The position numbers and the translations under genes are program-made. Shown piece after piece: positions 10,969 to 39,414 of a stretch of DNA of 39,414 nucleotides. This DNA comes from Flavobacteriaceae bacterium (GTDB lineage: Bacteria > Bacteroidota > Bacteroidia > Flavobacteriales > Flavobacteriaceae), in the NCBI GenBank assembly GCA_029243165.1, contig JAQWSN010000020.1:1-39414 (forward strand), given 5' to 3'. Positions within the stretch are counted from its first letter, which is position 1. Every line of letters starts with the position of its first letter. The notes under the pieces were generated by a model, which worked only from the letters and a program-made list of their open reading frames with translations, was not told the DNA's origin and did no database searches.

Positions 10969-11676
10969 ATGAATACAATTTTACGTTTGCCTCCGCTATT
11001 GCTATGGGCCTGCTTGGCCGTACTGACTTCTTGCGCATCATTAAAAAAATACGATGCCAAAGACCGTGCTTGGGCACTTCCCGAGATTGAAGCCTTTGAA
11101 GTTCTGGACTCCACTACTGACTATCCTGATGATGCCATCCTCTTTGTTGGGAGTTCCAGCATCCGACTCTGGAAAAGTCTTGAAAAGGATATGGCACCTT
11201 ATCCGGTTATTCAACGTGGCTATGGAGGAGCGCATTTTAGAGATATGGTATTTTTTACCGAACGCATTTTAGCCGATCATAAACTCAGTATGGTGGTCTG
11301 TTTTGTAGCAAACGACATTCGAGGTTCTTCTCAGGATGGAACCCCAAAAGAAGTTTTACGCTTATTTAAAAATTTTGTAGAACAAGTTCGGGAAAAACAT
11401 CCTACCCTTCCCATCCTCCAAATTTCAGTAACGCCTACTCTGAGTCGTTGGGAACATTGGACTGAAATCAAAAAGTTGAATGAACTCATAAAGGCACATT
11501 GCGAAAAAACGGACAATTTATTTTTTGTGGATACCACCCCCACCTTTTTAAACGCAGAAGGACAGCCCAAACCGGAATGGTTTATCAAGGATCAGTTACA
11601 CCTCAATGCCAAGGGTTACGAAGTCTGGAACAGCCTGATTAGACCCGAAATTGAACGAGTTAAGGCTTTGGAGTAG
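10969..11676 (+). CDS. SGNH/GDSL-type hydrolase lipoprotein
   Basis: Predicted exported esterase or lipase-like hydrolase, 235 aa. A signal peptide with lipobox LTSC ends at about residue 22, so it is a lipoprotein. The catalytic Ser block reads FVGSSSIRLWKSL, with GSS in place of GDS. Block II is RGYGGAHFRDMV, block III has FVANDIRGSS, and block V is DQLHLNAKGYEVW with the Asp and His of the catalytic set. The substrate is unknown; many Bacteroidota members act on acetylated glycans or lipids. A decayed copy of its last third lies 600 bp downstream. The 63 bp gap after gapN has no exact -7 box. Confidence 0.8.
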   Translation: MNTILRLPPLLLWACLAVLTSCASLKKYDAKDRAWALPEIEAFEVLDSTTDYPDDAILFVGSSSIRLWKSLEKDMAPYPVIQRGYGGAHFRDMVFFTERILADHKLSMVVCFVANDIRGSSQDGTPKEVLRLFKNFVEQVREKHPTLPILQISVTPTLSRWEHWTEIKKLNELIKAHCEKTDNLFFVDTTPTFLNAEGQPKPEWFIKDQLHLNAKGYEVWNSLIRPEIERVKALE

Positions 11677-12076: not shown

Positions 12077-12293
12077 CAAATTTCGGGAATGCCTACTCTG
12101 AGTCGTTTGGAGAACATAGTAAAAAAACGGACAAGTTACTCTTTGTGGATACCACCCCCACCTTTTTGAACGCAAAAGAAAAGCCCAAGCCGGAATGGTT
12201 TATCAAGGATCAGCTACAGCTTAATGCCAAGGTTACAAAGTTTTGAACAGCCTGATCAGACCCGAAATAGATTGAGTTAAGGCTTTGGAGTAG
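12077..12293 (+). pseudogene. Truncated, decayed duplicate of the SGNH hydrolase 3' end
   Basis: Nucleotide similarity to 11419-11676 is obvious; for example FVDTTPTFLNA and KPEWFIKDQL are retained. Only the last third of the gene is present. About 40 bp after the ACTCTGAGTCGTT stretch is missing. The catalytic block V reads DQLQLN instead of DQLHLN, so the catalytic His is lost. A one-base deletion after AATGCCAAG shifts the frame to an early stop at 12244-12246. The final 17 bases (12277-12293), still similar to the SGNH tail and its TAG, are read antisense as the last codons of the convergent methyltransferase gene. Confidence 0.85.
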
Positions 12294-35169: not shown

Positions 35170-36192
35170 ATGTACAAGAAACTAGTACAACCCTTGTTGT
35201 TTCTCTTTGATCCTGAGAAGGTACATTACTTTACTTTTTCGATCATAAAGTGGGTTTCTTACCTTCCTGGAGTTTCTTTTTTGATAAGAGCTTTGTACCA
35301 AGTAAATCATCCCAACTTGGAACGCGAAGTGTTTGGATTAAAGTTTCCAAATCCTGTAGGTTTGGCTGCTGGTTTTGATAAAAATGCGGTTCTCTTTAAA
35401 GAATTGTCAGACTTTGGTTTTGGGTTTATCGAGATTGGAACACTTACCCCCAAAGGACAAGAGGGAAATCTTAAAAAAAGACTTTTTCGACTTAAAGAAG
35501 ATGCGGCCATTATCAACCGATTGGGCTTCAATAATGATGGGGTAGATGAAGCAGTAAAGCGATTAAAGAAAAATAAAAATATTCTTATCGGAGGCAATAT
35601 TGGGAAAAATAAAGTTACCCCCAATGAAAATGCAGTTGACGATTATGTGTATTGCTTTCAATCCTTATTTGACTATGTAGATTACTTTGTGGTCAATGTA
35701 AGTTCGCCCAATACTCCTAATTTGAGAGCTCTGCAAGACAAGGAGCCTTTAACCCATTTACTTTCAACACTCAACTCACTGAATCATAAAAAAAGTAGCC
35801 CTAAGCCGATCTTATTAAAAATCGCACCCGACCTAACTCATTCCCAATTGGACGATATTATTGAGATTGTGGTTGCTACCAAGATTGATGGCGTAATTGC
35901 AACCAATACAACGCTAAATCGAGAAGGGTTACAATCTGGAAACAAATCCGAAGCGGGTGGACTGAGTGGAAAACCTCTTGGAGAAAGAAGTACAGAAGTC
36001 ATCCGATATTTGGCAGACCAAAGCAAAAAAGCCTTTCCCATTATTGGAGTGGGAGGGATTCACTCTGCCGAAGACGCAGTTGAAAAGCTAAATGCAGGGG
36101 CTTCGCTGGTTCAGCTTTACACAGGATTTGTCTATGAAGGTCCCGCCGTTGTAAAGCGAATCAATAAATTGTTGCTTAGTCAAAATAGCTAA
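35170..36192 (+). CDS. pyrD: Dihydroorotate dehydrogenase (quinone), class 2
   Basis: Oxidises dihydroorotate to orotate with quinone as acceptor, the fourth step of pyrimidine synthesis; peripheral at the inner membrane. Length is 340 aa. The N-terminal helical tail [20 protein letters not shown] is the quinone-binding extension of class 2 enzymes. FMN and catalytic motifs are [31 protein letters not shown] with the class 2 catalytic Ser, [10 protein letters not shown] and [11 protein letters not shown]. The C-terminal codons (SQNS and stop) lie within the left 26 bp repeat. With the terminator immediately upstream, its own promoter must lie inside yajC, or it depends on read-through. Confidence 0.95.
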
Positions 36193-36201
36193 ACCCTTTT
36201 T
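36176..36201 (+). repeat. Left copy of 26 bp perfect direct repeat
   Basis: Identical over 26 bp to 39235-39260; the core is AGTCAAAATAGCTAAACC. On the plus strand it encodes the last residues of PyrD and its TAA. Read antisense it would encode the C-terminus of the M42 peptidase. Confidence 0.9.
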
Positions 36202-36436
36202 GAAACTCTAGGAAATCCCACTACGTTGAAATTCATTTTCAAGATTTGGATTTTTTTTTTAGAAAAACTATCTTGTGGCTTATTCCCTAAATCACCTGCT
36301 TATGATAAGCTAATAAAAATCAAACCTTAAGTATTAAAATAGCACTCTAGTCAGTAATTTTTGGACTAGAGCAAGACGTCAGTTTAGACCTAAAAGTGAC
36401 GTAAACAGAAGTAAGTCGTATCCCCAAAATCACGCC
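36202..36436 (+). promoter_or_regulatory. Leader region of the lipoprotein pair with three hairpins
   Basis: No gene in these 235 bp. Three inverted repeats occur in a row: GCTTA-TGA-TAAGC (36298-36310); CTCTAGTC (36345-36352) with GACTAGAG (36364-36371); and ACGTCA (36376-36381) with TGACGT (36397-36402), the last enclosing TTTAG/CTAAA. The loop of the second contains TAATTTTTG, one base longer than a TAnnTTTG box. These could be operators around a promoter, or RNA structures in a leader. Confidence 0.45.
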
Positions 36437-37909
36437 ATGATTAAAAAATCAACTCTTATTTTGATTGGAATCATTCTAGTTCAATTTAGTTGTCAAAAAG
36501 ACTATTACTTAGAAGATTTAAATGCTGCTGAAGCAGAATACCAATCCTTGAATCTCAAGTTGAAACAAATAAACTCGGAAAATCAGCAATTGATCTCTGA
36601 AAATCAGCAATTGGCATTTCAAATAGACAATTTAAAAAGTCAAATAGAATCTTCGTCCACTAGTGTTGCTTCTGCATTAAGCCAAATTGAAGAGATTGAA
36701 GAACATATTTCTGGTTTGGAACAAGAAATTGAGGAAACCTTCAATGCTATTGAGTCACGAACTGTGGAGTTGTTAAATCAACTTCAAAACAGTTATCCGG
36801 AACAAACCGATCTGAAAAATAAAATTGATGACCTCCTTGAACAGTTGAGTCAAAACACACTCTCAACTTGGGAGGCAGATGCTCTTTATCTTGAAATAGC
36901 GAATGATTTTGCCATAGTTATTGGTGTTCAAGATGGATTTTACAAAACATACAAGCGGTCTTTTGGAATTACGAAAGAAGACTTTCAAAATCAAAATTTT
37001 GAATTACGACATGAATCCAGTCGTCATTATTATTACGAAATCAAAGACAAGGAGACTTTGGAGGTTTCCATCGTTAGGAAGCACAATGATCCTGAGTATT
37101 TTGATAATCCCTACAGTTCGGAACCTTATTTAGATAAAAACATTTGGTTTTCCGATACTTATGAAATGGAAGTATTAGGAGCTGATCTGATTAAAGTTGT
37201 GGAATGGTATGAAACCGGTGACGGTACGAGGTATGATGTAATGCATTTAAGTAAAGTTGACTCCATTCCTTATGATCGAACCAATGAGGAACTTCAGACT
37301 CTTTTTAGAGAAAAAAAGACAGGTTTTTTTTCAGACCCAGTGTACAGTCAAGTTGATGTTACGGATTTGTCTTCTTTTTTATTGACTTTTATCGAAGACG
37401 GAAAACGATACGGTAGGGACATGAGTTGGATTAATCCGTCCAATTACAACTTTAGGTTTGATGAGTTTTTACCCGAGAAAGCCATTAATGGATCTGCTCC
37501 TAATTACCAAGTTGGTTACGATCTCTTTGTTTGTAAGGGGGGAGGAAGAACTGAAAAGGCTACTTTTAGAATAAATAGAGATTGGTGGGATAAGATGGCA
37601 TTTGTTGACCAAAGGAATTTACACATCCAAATTTTTTGGCGAATTTTTGCTAGAACACTTTTTACCTACGATTATTTTGAAGGGGAGGATCATCTCTTGT
37701 CTTATGGAGGAAGCGATATTTACCAGATGACTTTTGATGATGAGGAAGAAAAGTACAATTTCCAAGAAGCTGCCAGAAAAATGTTTCAAGGAATAGACCA
37801 GATAAGTTGGAGTAGTTGTAGTTCTAAGGGAACAGTACCAATTAATACATCTCCAAATAAGATACCTTTAGATTCCCGGAAAGTTAAAACCCTAAAAAAG
37901 AGACCATGA
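36437..37909 (+). CDS. Coiled-coil lipoprotein with inactive protease-like C-terminal domain
   Basis: A 490 aa exported lipoprotein: signal peptide MIKKSTLILIGIILVQFSC with lipobox and mature start CQKDYYLEDLN. Residues about 30-135 form a long coiled coil rich in Gln, Glu, Leu and Ser, including a tandem heptad (ENQQLIS then ENQQLAF). The remainder aligns with the downstream lipoprotein: FIEDGKRYGRDMSWI matches FIEDAKRHGVDLSHI, and MFQGIDQ...CSSKG matches FFKGIDH...CTNYKG. Where the partner has HELGH, this protein has RIFAR (402-406), so the zinc site is lost. Its stop overlaps the next ATG (ATGA). No named family is recognised; a pseudo-protease partner or regulator is an inference. Confidence 0.8.
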   Translation: MIKKSTLILIGIILVQFSCQKDYYLEDLNAAEAEYQSLNLKLKQINSENQQLISENQQLAFQIDNLKSQIESSSTSVASALSQIEEIEEHISGLEQEIEETFNAIESRTVELLNQLQNSYPEQTDLKNKIDDLLEQLSQNTLSTWEADALYLEIANDFAIVIGVQDGFYKTYKRSFGITKEDFQNQNFELRHESSRHYYYEIKDKETLEVSIVRKHNDPEYFDNPYSSEPYLDKNIWFSDTYEMEVLGADLIKVVEWYETGDGTRYDVMHLSKVDSIPYDRTNEELQTLFREKKTGFFSDPVYSQVDVTDLSSFLLTFIEDGKRYGRDMSWINPSNYNFRFDEFLPEKAINGSAPNYQVGYDLFVCKGGGRTEKATFRINRDWWDKMAFVDQRNLHIQIFWRIFARTLFTYDYFEGEDHLLSYGGSDIYQMTFDDEEEKYNFQEAARKMFQGIDQISWSSCSSKGTVPINTSPNKIPLDSRKVKTLKKRP

Positions 37910-39009
37910 AAAAATTAGCTTACCTATTGTACTTATCCCTTTTGGTATTTTTTAGTTGTCAGAAAGATTTTTATTTGGAAGATCTCAATGAGGTTAACAG
38001 TCAAATTGAAGCCCTCCAATCTCAAATTGTAGTTTCAGAAAATGAGGGGAAATCGTTATTGTCGGAAAAAGAAATTCTACAAACTCAAATTATTGATGTC
38101 CAAAATCAGTTGAAACAACAGCAAATGACGCTGGATGAGGCTTTGGAGAAAATAAAGGAGCTGGAAGAAAAAATTATTGAAATAGATGGAATTAAAGACG
38201 GGATTTATGAGATTGTTTTGGAAAAGCAAATTTCAACTACCGAGGGGGAGGGTTTAGAAGTTCTGGAGTCTTGGTGGCAAACGGACCCCAATACCAGTAC
38301 ATTTGTAAAAATCCAAGCTAGAGAAATCATAAACCATACAATTTACAGAGGTTATTATGTTGGGAAAGGAAGTGATGGTGACGAGTTGGGTTGGTTGCAC
38401 ACAAGGAAACTGTCAAGCTTTCCTTATTACACTGACTTGTCTGTTATTGACACTTCAGATCAAAATCAGAATTATTTAGTAAACCTTTCTAAAGAACGAA
38501 TTAGTTTGGACTCCCTATTAATCATTGACAAAAAACGTTATCGATCTCATAATTTAGATGATGGAAGTAGTGCGGTTTTTACTGATAAAGTTTACACAAA
38601 ATTAGTTGAGAGAGAATCTTTCCCACCTTTAAACACAGAAGAGGAATTAACAGAAATTTTTAAGATTACAGGAAACGGGTTTTATTCCGATTCGTTGTAC
38701 CTGACCTTAGATCCTTCTGACCCTTATGACTACATACGCGTATTTATCGAAGATGCAAAACGACATGGGGTGGATTTGAGCCACATAACCAATAAAGAAC
38801 CTTATTTGCATGAAATTTCAATTGATAGTGAGGGAGCATGTGCCTGGGCATCAGACGTCTGCGATAGGGAAAAAATTTGGATAGAATACGATTCAGCTTG
38901 TTGGGAATATGGTTTGCCTGATCCCTATTTTGCTGATCGTTTGCAAACTATGTACCACGAATTGGGACATACAATTTTAAGCTATGATCATCCTATGGTG
39001 GAAGATTGA
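37906..39009 (+). CDS. Coiled-coil lipoprotein with HELGH metalloprotease motif, cut by in-frame TGA
   Basis: A 367 aa lipoprotein: MKKLAYLLYLSLLVFFSC, mature start CQKDFYLEDLN, coiled coil about residues 25-90, then a domain shared with its upstream neighbour. HELGHTILSYDH (351-362) is a zinc-protease motif: H351 and H355, with E352 as base and D361 or H362 as the possible third ligand. The TGA at 39007-39009 stops it four residues after that motif. The same frame continues for 70 more codons to 39222 and includes DDIMG, a Met-turn-like motif expected downstream of such a site. Start overlaps the previous stop by 4 bp. The gene is either broken or recoded. Confidence 0.75.
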   Translation: MKKLAYLLYLSLLVFFSCQKDFYLEDLNEVNSQIEALQSQIVVSENEGKSLLSEKEILQTQIIDVQNQLKQQQMTLDEALEKIKELEEKIIEIDGIKDGIYEIVLEKQISTTEGEGLEVLESWWQTDPNTSTFVKIQAREIINHTIYRGYYVGKGSDGDELGWLHTRKLSSFPYYTDLSVIDTSDQNQNYLVNLSKERISLDSLLIIDKKRYRSHNLDDGSSAVFTDKVYTKLVERESFPPLNTEEELTEIFKITGNGFYSDSLYLTLDPSDPYDYIRVFIEDAKRHGVDLSHITNKEPYLHEISIDSEGACAWASDVCDREKIWIEYDSACWEYGLPDPYFADRLQTMYHELGHTILSYDHPMVED

Positions 39010-39222
39010 GAGGAAAAAGGATTGGAATGGCCTGAAAACGTGGCAGAGGGTTTCAACGGGCGGAAAGATGACATTATGGGTTACAGTTTTAATAACAATT
39101 GGGAGCATGACGATGATCCTGAGCAGACCTGGTATCAAAGGTTGGATCGCTTTTTTAAAGGCATTGATCACGAATATTACGATTGTACCAACTACAAAGG
39201 AAGACGCATAATTGCGGATTAA
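39010..39222 (+). pseudogene. C-terminal remainder of the HELGH lipoprotein beyond the in-frame stop
   Basis: In phase with the gene before it and open to a TAA at 39220-39222. Contains EWPENVAEGFNGRKDDIMGY and RFFKGIDHEYYDCTNYKG. The second stretch matches the C-terminus of the upstream paralogue (MFQGIDQISWSSCSSKG), which shows it belongs to the same protein. One base change (TGA to TGG) would restore a 438 aa product. An internal ATG at 39022 is unlikely to be a true start, since it would make a fragment without a fold or signal. Confidence 0.75.
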
Positions 39223-39234
39223 AACAATGCTTAT

Positions 39235-39260
39235 TTAGTCAAAATAGCTAAACCCTTTTT
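39235..39260 (+). repeat. Right copy of 26 bp perfect direct repeat
   Basis: Identical to 36176-36201. On the minus strand it encodes the last codons (FSYFD and stop) of the M42 peptidase. Confidence 0.9.
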
Positions 39261-39414
39261 TGGGATCGATAGTTAAAAGACTTTCGTAAATGAGTCGGAT
39301 TACGTTTTCTACATCATCTCGGTGAACCATTTCAACGGTGGTGTGCATGTACCGCAAGGGCAATGAGATTAATGCAGAAGCAACTCCTCCATTGCTGTAA
39401 GCAAAAGCATCGGT
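39235..39414 (-). CDS. M42 family metallopeptidase, C-terminal part
   Basis: The last 59 residues of a gene entering from the right edge. TDAFAYSNGGVASALISLPL followed by RYMHTTVEMVHRDDVENVI is the C-terminal signature of M42 aminopeptidases (glutamyl aminopeptidase/cellulase M type); the His in MHTTVEM is a metal ligand in the family. These are cytoplasmic di-zinc aminopeptidases forming large dodecamers. The gene converges on the lipoprotein insert, and its final codons lie in the right 26 bp repeat. Confidence 0.9.
   Translation of the reverse strand, partial: TDAFAYSNGGVASALISLPLRYMHTTVEMVHRDDVENVIRLIYESLLTIDPKKGFSYFD

Follow-up and report, generated by a model that had tools for sequence, protein, structure and literature searches.

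A recombinase-less lipoprotein islet, apparently inserted with duplication of 26 bp, at overlapping convergent gene ends in a marine flavobacterium

Small genomic segments and islands that have short direct repeats at their ends and carry no recombinase gene have been described (PMC2884548, PMC3191183, PMC5426353), as have cis-mobilizable elements (CIMEs; PMC5704250). In three species, 10-18% of small variable segments are flanked by direct repeats, and 66-94% of these repeats are shorter than 30 bp (PMC2884548); illegitimate routes may well produce such repeat-flanked segments. The microcin H47 island of E. coli, 13 kb in length and flanked by imperfect 146/148-bp repeats, contains no recombinase gene (PMC3191183) and undergoes excision that was seen by PCR; tests of the 16 site-specific recombinases of E. 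coli left this excision unexplained (PMC5426353). CIMEs are decayed ICEs or IMEs that keep att sites (PMC5704250). Deletion between two perfect repeats is described for the wzy locus of S. Typhimurium (PMC12074656), and helper-dependent elements have been reviewed (PMC11389934).

We analysed a window of 39,414 nt, that is, the whole stretch of DNA considered here, from the forward strand of contig JAQWSN010000020.1 of Flavobacteriaceae bacterium GCA_029243165.1, a marine flavobacterium whose assembly (genome G000) comprises 2.09 Mb and is 94% complete. The named pyrD loci closest to that of G000 (78% identity) belong, among GTDB genomes, to an uncultured Flavobacteriaceae bacterium and to a Candidatus Arcticimaribacter sp., a name tied to the NS5 marine group (PMC9122927). 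Comparison with relatives indicates that, barring an assembly error, this window contains an insertion with a 26-bp duplication covering the overlap of two convergent genes, pyrD and an M42 peptidase gene (Table 1). A preliminary description of the window had been unable to name the kind of element involved; the precedents cited above supply one, and the pyrD/M42 islet, which has exact short direct repeats at both ends, one-copy empty sites in relatives, and no recombinase inside, is a recent, clean case of an already known kind. The islet resembles the H47 island in having cargo between direct repeats, no recombinase gene, and empty sites elsewhere, and differs in its size of 3 kb, in its exact 26-bp repeats, and in being known from sequence alone (PMC3191183, PMC5426353). 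It resembles CIMEs in its att-like repeats, its lack of integration and transfer genes, and its gene 3' end target; however, CIMEs share att sites with ICEs or IMEs, whereas for the pyrD/M42 islet no parent element was found, the core of the repeat having no other copy in G000 and no integrase-bearing element with that core having been found in the searches made (PMC5704250). It resembles small variable segments in size, in short direct repeats, and in presence or absence among relatives, and differs in that both overlapping convergent genes keep their ends (PMC2884548). Literature searches with the genus name, for integrase-less islands in the family, and for integrase-less marine islands yielded, among the matches listed, no account of such islets in this genus.

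Table 1. Features at the pyrD/M42 junction, in positions of the 39,414-nt window.
Feature	Position	Strand	Basis
pyrD (dihydroorotate dehydrogenase), target gene 1	35170..36192	+	PF01180 (DHO_dh), E 7.2e-85; ORF
Left 26-bp repeat copy (duplicated target)	36176..36201		exact repeat; holds last codons and stop of pyrD
Insert leader, non-coding, 235 bp	36202..36436		predicted hairpin beside repeat, more hairpins
Lipoprotein gene 1, 490 aa	36437..37909	+	lipobox-like FSC, coiled coil, HExGH-related C-terminal region with motif lost
Lipoprotein gene 2, 367 aa	37906..39009	+	lipobox-like FSC, HELGH; ends at in-frame TGA
In-frame continuation past TGA of gene 2	39010..39222	+	separate ORF 39022-39222
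Right 26-bp repeat copy	39235..39260		exact repeat
M42 peptidase gene 3' end, target gene 2	39235..39414	-	59 codons and stop; remainder beyond contig end

The preliminary description had reported the same 26 bp at two positions of the window, and we find that the sequence TTAGTCAAAATAGCTAAACCCTTTTT is indeed present there in two exactly identical direct copies, which delimit an insert of 3,059 bp including one repeat copy, or 3,033 bp without it; the base directly after the 26 bp is G in the left copy and T in the right copy. By chance, the window should contain about 5e-7 exact repeat pairs of at least 26 bp; in 40 Markov shuffles of it, the longest exact repeat reached 19 bp. An 18-bp core of the repeat, with at most one mismatch allowed, occurs at only two places in the whole G000 assembly, the two junctions, and blastn of both junctions against G000 returned the two repeat copies as the sole strong matches. 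Across 38 genomes the same core gave 95 matches, the junctions included, vs 132 for a reversed control pattern, and the 40 bp preceding each copy are identical at 15 positions, a level equalled by 153 of 2000 shuffles. The assignment of the left copy to the PyrD C-terminus and its plus-strand stop (TAA at 36190-36192), and that of the right copy to the C-terminus and stop (39235-39237) of the minus-strand gene, were both borne out. We use for that right-hand gene the label M42 given to it in the preliminary description. The further statement that both genes are kept whole stands for the gene ends and not for M42 as a whole, of which only the last 59 codons are assembled, the contig stopping there; a query with the complete M42 protein of G021, a relative, recovered no remainder elsewhere in G000. 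The 59 codons match NCBIfam aminopeptidase models with scores below the cut-offs and show 93% identity to the G021 gene.

To assess the junction in relatives we compared pyrD loci within the genus and beyond. A pyrD search of 38 genus genomes gave matches in 32, and 30 loci were retained (G000 and 29 relatives, with about 1.5 kb fetched on each side of pyrD); both pyrD and the M42 end lie within the stretch in 28 of the 29 relatives, L017 being left out. The two genes are adjacent and convergent in all 28, with a 17-bp overlap in six and a 16-bp overlap in one; a further 11 have short gaps (6-35 bp), and the other 10 have longer ones (104-806 bp), which contain no repeat of at least 9 bp between their ends in any of nine cases (the tenth, L020, was left out since its search windows overlap). 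Collapsing the repeats of G000 had been predicted to yield a 17-bp convergent overlap, and exactly this overlap, as a single-copy empty site, is what the six relatives have, four of them in the pyrD clade of G000 itself. None of the 28 carries the lipoproteins at the junction. These single-copy empty sites in the nearest relatives, the constant adjacency, and the missing lipoproteins support the proposal of an insertion of about 3.03 kb that duplicated the overlap. In a set of 80 named pyrD loci of GTDB genomes, the majority of other genera and some on short contigs (up to 5 kb fetched), M42 adjoins pyrD in only six and is absent from the stretch, which was short for some, in the remaining 74; lipoproteins lie beside pyrD at none of the 80, the six with M42 included. 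We conclude that pyrD-M42 adjacency is a feature of the genus.

In the pyrD tree, G000 groups with G010, G001, G021, G018, and G005 in a clade of six (support 100/99), the inner branching of which is partly unresolved. Four of these five have the 17-bp overlap. The fifth, G001, has a 713-bp gap at the junction, no repeat, and a different PyrD tail; if G001 came from an overlapping ancestor, a point that the tree does not settle, then survival does not require retention of the tail, and the exactness of the duplication would reflect mechanism and not selection. Both repeat copies of G000 share three states, at positions 13, 19, and 25, that are missing from all four clade empty sites. Because the copies share these states, the duplication appears to postdate the split from the clade relatives, that is, to be recent, and deletion in the relatives is unlikely. 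Over the pyrD tree as a whole, the 17-bp overlap (L004, L005, L006, L010, L024, L028) is scattered over separate parts, apparently because the conserved M42 tail provides pyrD with an in-frame stop codon.

The insert contains two lipoprotein ORFs, overlapping by 4 bp (stop/start), and no recombinase or transposase gene, in agreement with the initial reading of the cargo. Matches of the insert to Pfam, NCBIfam, and PHROGs are weak and confined to the coiled-coil parts of the two proteins; they include integrase family phrog_95 (E 0.028 and 0.12) and, both below cut-off, models of an IS110 transposase (E 0.098) and of an ICE protein (E 0.0069). The GC content of the insert is similar to that of neighbouring DNA, the leader has no match in Rfam, and the predicted fold of 36186-36440 (z -1.09) is not stronger than those of shuffles. 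Each lipoprotein has a coiled coil and an FSC motif that we take to be lipobox-like, and the two proteins resemble one another in two short stretches (36-39%). The HELGH of lipoprotein 2, presumably as in zinc metallopeptidases, aligns with nine relatives chosen for an HExGH motif; the motif is gone in lipoprotein 1. The stop of lipoprotein gene 2 (TGA, 39007-39009) is directly behind the HELGH region, the frame stays open to 39222, and the sole match of the continuation under E 0.01 is a G221 protein (E 0.002); the in-frame TGA represents either recent decay or an assembly error.

Lipoprotein 1 has few relatives: there are partial matches in 2 of the 37 other genomes of the genus and, in the wider family, in 4 of 396 other genomes at E 1e-8 with three candidates scored per genome. 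Lipoprotein 2 has matches in 20 of the 37 genus genomes at E 0.001, all but one of them above 1e-6; these are mostly weak, cover about 100 C-terminal residues, and are to short HExGH proteins of about 200 aa, one of which is encoded by G000 itself. The best full-length relative of lipoprotein 2, encoded in G336, has recA on one side and a transporter gene on the other (names read from sequence), with no flanking repeat longer than 14 bp. The core of the 26-bp repeat is nowhere else in G000, and relatives' lipoprotein loci L076, L077, and L078 have no flanking repeat longer than 14 bp among the longest 25 repeats of each, low-complexity repeats excluded. Scans that reached close relatives only found no relatives of lipoprotein 2 in viral contigs and none of lipoprotein 1 in genome_contigs; there were likewise no relatives of lipoprotein 1 in phages, none of lipoprotein 2 in plasmids, and no match of the insert DNA to plasmids.

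A second cargo-only islet in G000 (L103 51-1564, contig C14) contains a YHYH lipoprotein gene (PF14240) and no integrase ORF, and is bordered by 29-bp copies of a terminator-like hairpin and the 3' end of tRNA-Met(CAT). The outer tRNA-end copy again precedes an islet-type hairpin near the contig end, which suggests that the locus is a tandem islet. In 17 genomes, namely G000 and 16 relatives chosen from 21 relatives in which the tRNA was found, we searched downstream of tRNA-Met for a second copy of its end (13-mer, at most one mismatch); with 0.45-12.7 kb of downstream sequence available, so that misses are not all informative, a second copy was present in seven (G000, G030, G028, G013 (twice), G029, G026, and G006), at a distance of about 1-7.6 kb. 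A stricter search found recurrence in 4 of 22 genomes and no repeat in the 22-1332 bp of G007, G008, G015, G021, and G023, which are outside the 17. The relatives' loci are L287, L288, L289, L290, L292, and L293, with two successive intervals in G013, and several inserts show, by eye, a terminator-like hairpin directly 3' of the tRNA. Two small cargo genes are the same in G030 and G028, are present in swapped order in G029, and are represented by one in G006; the cargo differs in G013, G000, and G026. No tyrosine-recombinase match was found on the contigs of the seven loci. In G025, a 533-aa integrase ORF is right behind tRNA-Met, with no second copy of the tRNA end within 12.7 kb downstream. 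G000 itself has three integrase genes of 406-450 aa on contigs C9, C12, and C31, two fragments of 121 aa, and two Xer-like genes, the Xer-like genes being separated from other integrases by length and score only.

The tRNA-Met islets and the pyrD/M42 islet are alike in being cargo-only, in having repeats from a gene 3' end, and, in G000, in carrying a lipoprotein gene, but their ends show no sequence relation beyond shuffles: in four comparisons the scores were reached by 8, 20, 28, and 88% of shuffles, the cores being closest (8%). Among other observations made on the recombinases and repeats of these genomes, two similar tyrosine-recombinase C-terminal fragments of 120 aa in G000 (L304 4496-4855 and L305 4391-4750; identical at 55 of their first 60 residues) each stand solitary among unrelated genes, and in relative G037 a 120-bp direct repeat that includes an apparent tRNA 3' end occurs twice 5.4 kb apart (L118 9158 and 14592), the segment probably being an integrated island. 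A survey of direct repeats took in 664,882 bases of G000 (about a third, with the window included and a small overlap double-counted) and 400,000 bases from three relatives. Two sets of repeats were rejected as islets: those at 11.5-12.3 kb of the window, which represent a decayed partial gene copy, and those of L231, which resemble an older diverged duplication. The decayed copy, at about 12077-12293, corresponds to the 3' end of the GDSL-hydrolase gene (10969-11676) at 88% over 181 bp and extends to where a convergent methyltransferase gene ends. An 18-bp repeat near YHYH genes in G019 and G022 lies just ahead of two gene starts.

Several accounts of the pyrD/M42 locus are improbable. Loss of an ancestral insert from the relatives is the one that we disfavour most: deletion between the repeats would leave exactly one copy, as is seen, but several independent precise losses would be required, and the three states common to both copies are missing in the four clade empty sites. 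An artefact of draft assembly, in which unrelated contigs were fused at a short shared word or a free circle was incorporated, is very improbable. The right junction is 180 bp from the contig end, and many assembly words are longer than 26 bp; the left junction, however, lies deep in the contig, the sequence runs without a break through both flanks and both lipoprotein genes, and even a false join would need the sample to contain the lipoproteins with the 26 bp behind them. A tandem duplication that took in the junction, with subsequent deletions that removed all but the lipoproteins from between the two overlap copies, is improbable too: the window does contain a decayed partial tandem copy, that of the GDSL-hydrolase gene end, but the process requires that the lipoproteins earlier lay beside pyrD or M42, an arrangement unseen in the stretches fetched for the 29 genus relatives and 80 GTDB loci, and tblastn of the insert detected no extra piece of pyrD or of the M42 end. 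A DNA transposon or IS-derived element (MITE) was rejected, as there are no inverted ends (no terminal inverted repeats clearly above shuffles) and the repeat and leader start occur at a single locus only.

The accounts that retain most weight differ in whether an enzyme dedicated to the reaction was at work. We tentatively favour a recombinase-less genomic islet that a trans-acting recombinase joined to gene 3' ends by site-specific recombination. Barring an assembly error, the 3.03-kb segment, comprising the leader and the two-gene lipoprotein operon, entered the 26 bp where the pyrD and M42 tails overlap, leaving one copy on each side, so that each gene retained its own end; the recombinase would have come from another element, as for CIME-like or 'hitcher' islands. 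Its main rival, which we hold to be possible and somewhat less probable, is RecA-independent illegitimate recombination, in which template switching or fill-in of a staggered break would copy or ligate foreign DNA into the junction and duplicate the 26 bp by accident. In its favour are the single event, the cargo that resembles ordinary host genes, and the nine relatives whose junction gaps of 104-806 bp lack a repeat, and there is precedent in the short direct repeats around small variable segments (PMC2884548). Ku-type end joining is unlikely because Ku was found in 0 of 38 genomes (control match in 1 of 14); other illegitimate routes remain. An exact duplication of 26 bp over both gene ends exceeds usual microhomology, and the tRNA-end islets of the genus point toward site-specific recombination. 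Site-specific recombination in trans is favoured because the same genome has the YHYH tRNA-Met islet, because the tRNA end recurs in relatives, and because G000 has three integrase genes of 406-450 aa. Moreover, the duplicated unit consists of gene 3' ends, a feature of the att sites of tyrosine-recombinase elements as well (PMC5704250). Against this reading is the fact that one insertion at pyrD/M42 was found and no more. Also against it are the lack of a clear relation between the ends of the two islets, the G025 integrase ORF with no second tRNA-end copy behind it, and the repeat-free gap in the clade relative G001. The G000 assembly has no third site copy (attP), candidate attP matches in viral contigs (1 and 9 stretches) were rejected, all ten being inside unrelated coding frames, and the searches made found no recombinase, donor, or attP tied to the pyrD/M42 site. 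We infer that the activity behind the insertion was most likely site-specific recombination. That the islet targets gene ends is plausible because of the tRNA-Met islets of the same genus, and is unproven for pyrD/M42 because it was seen once.

A broader proposal, to which we give rather little credence, is that the genus maintains a pool of recombinase-less cassettes of 1-3 kb, carrying one or two genes, some for lipoproteins, that would plug into gene 3' ends (tRNA-Met repeatedly, and the pyrD/M42 tail), rebuild those ends, often with a terminator, use host integrases in trans, and stack in tandem like integron cassettes. The pyrD/M42 islet represents a clean and relatively datable gene gain in a small marine genome, with no visible mobility gene and with empty sites in relatives. 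It is the tRNA-Met islets, and not the pyrD islet alone, that would raise the interest of the finding: taken together, they offer a concrete test of whether single-gene uptake proceeds through a trans-acting integrase or through enzyme-free illegitimate recombination.
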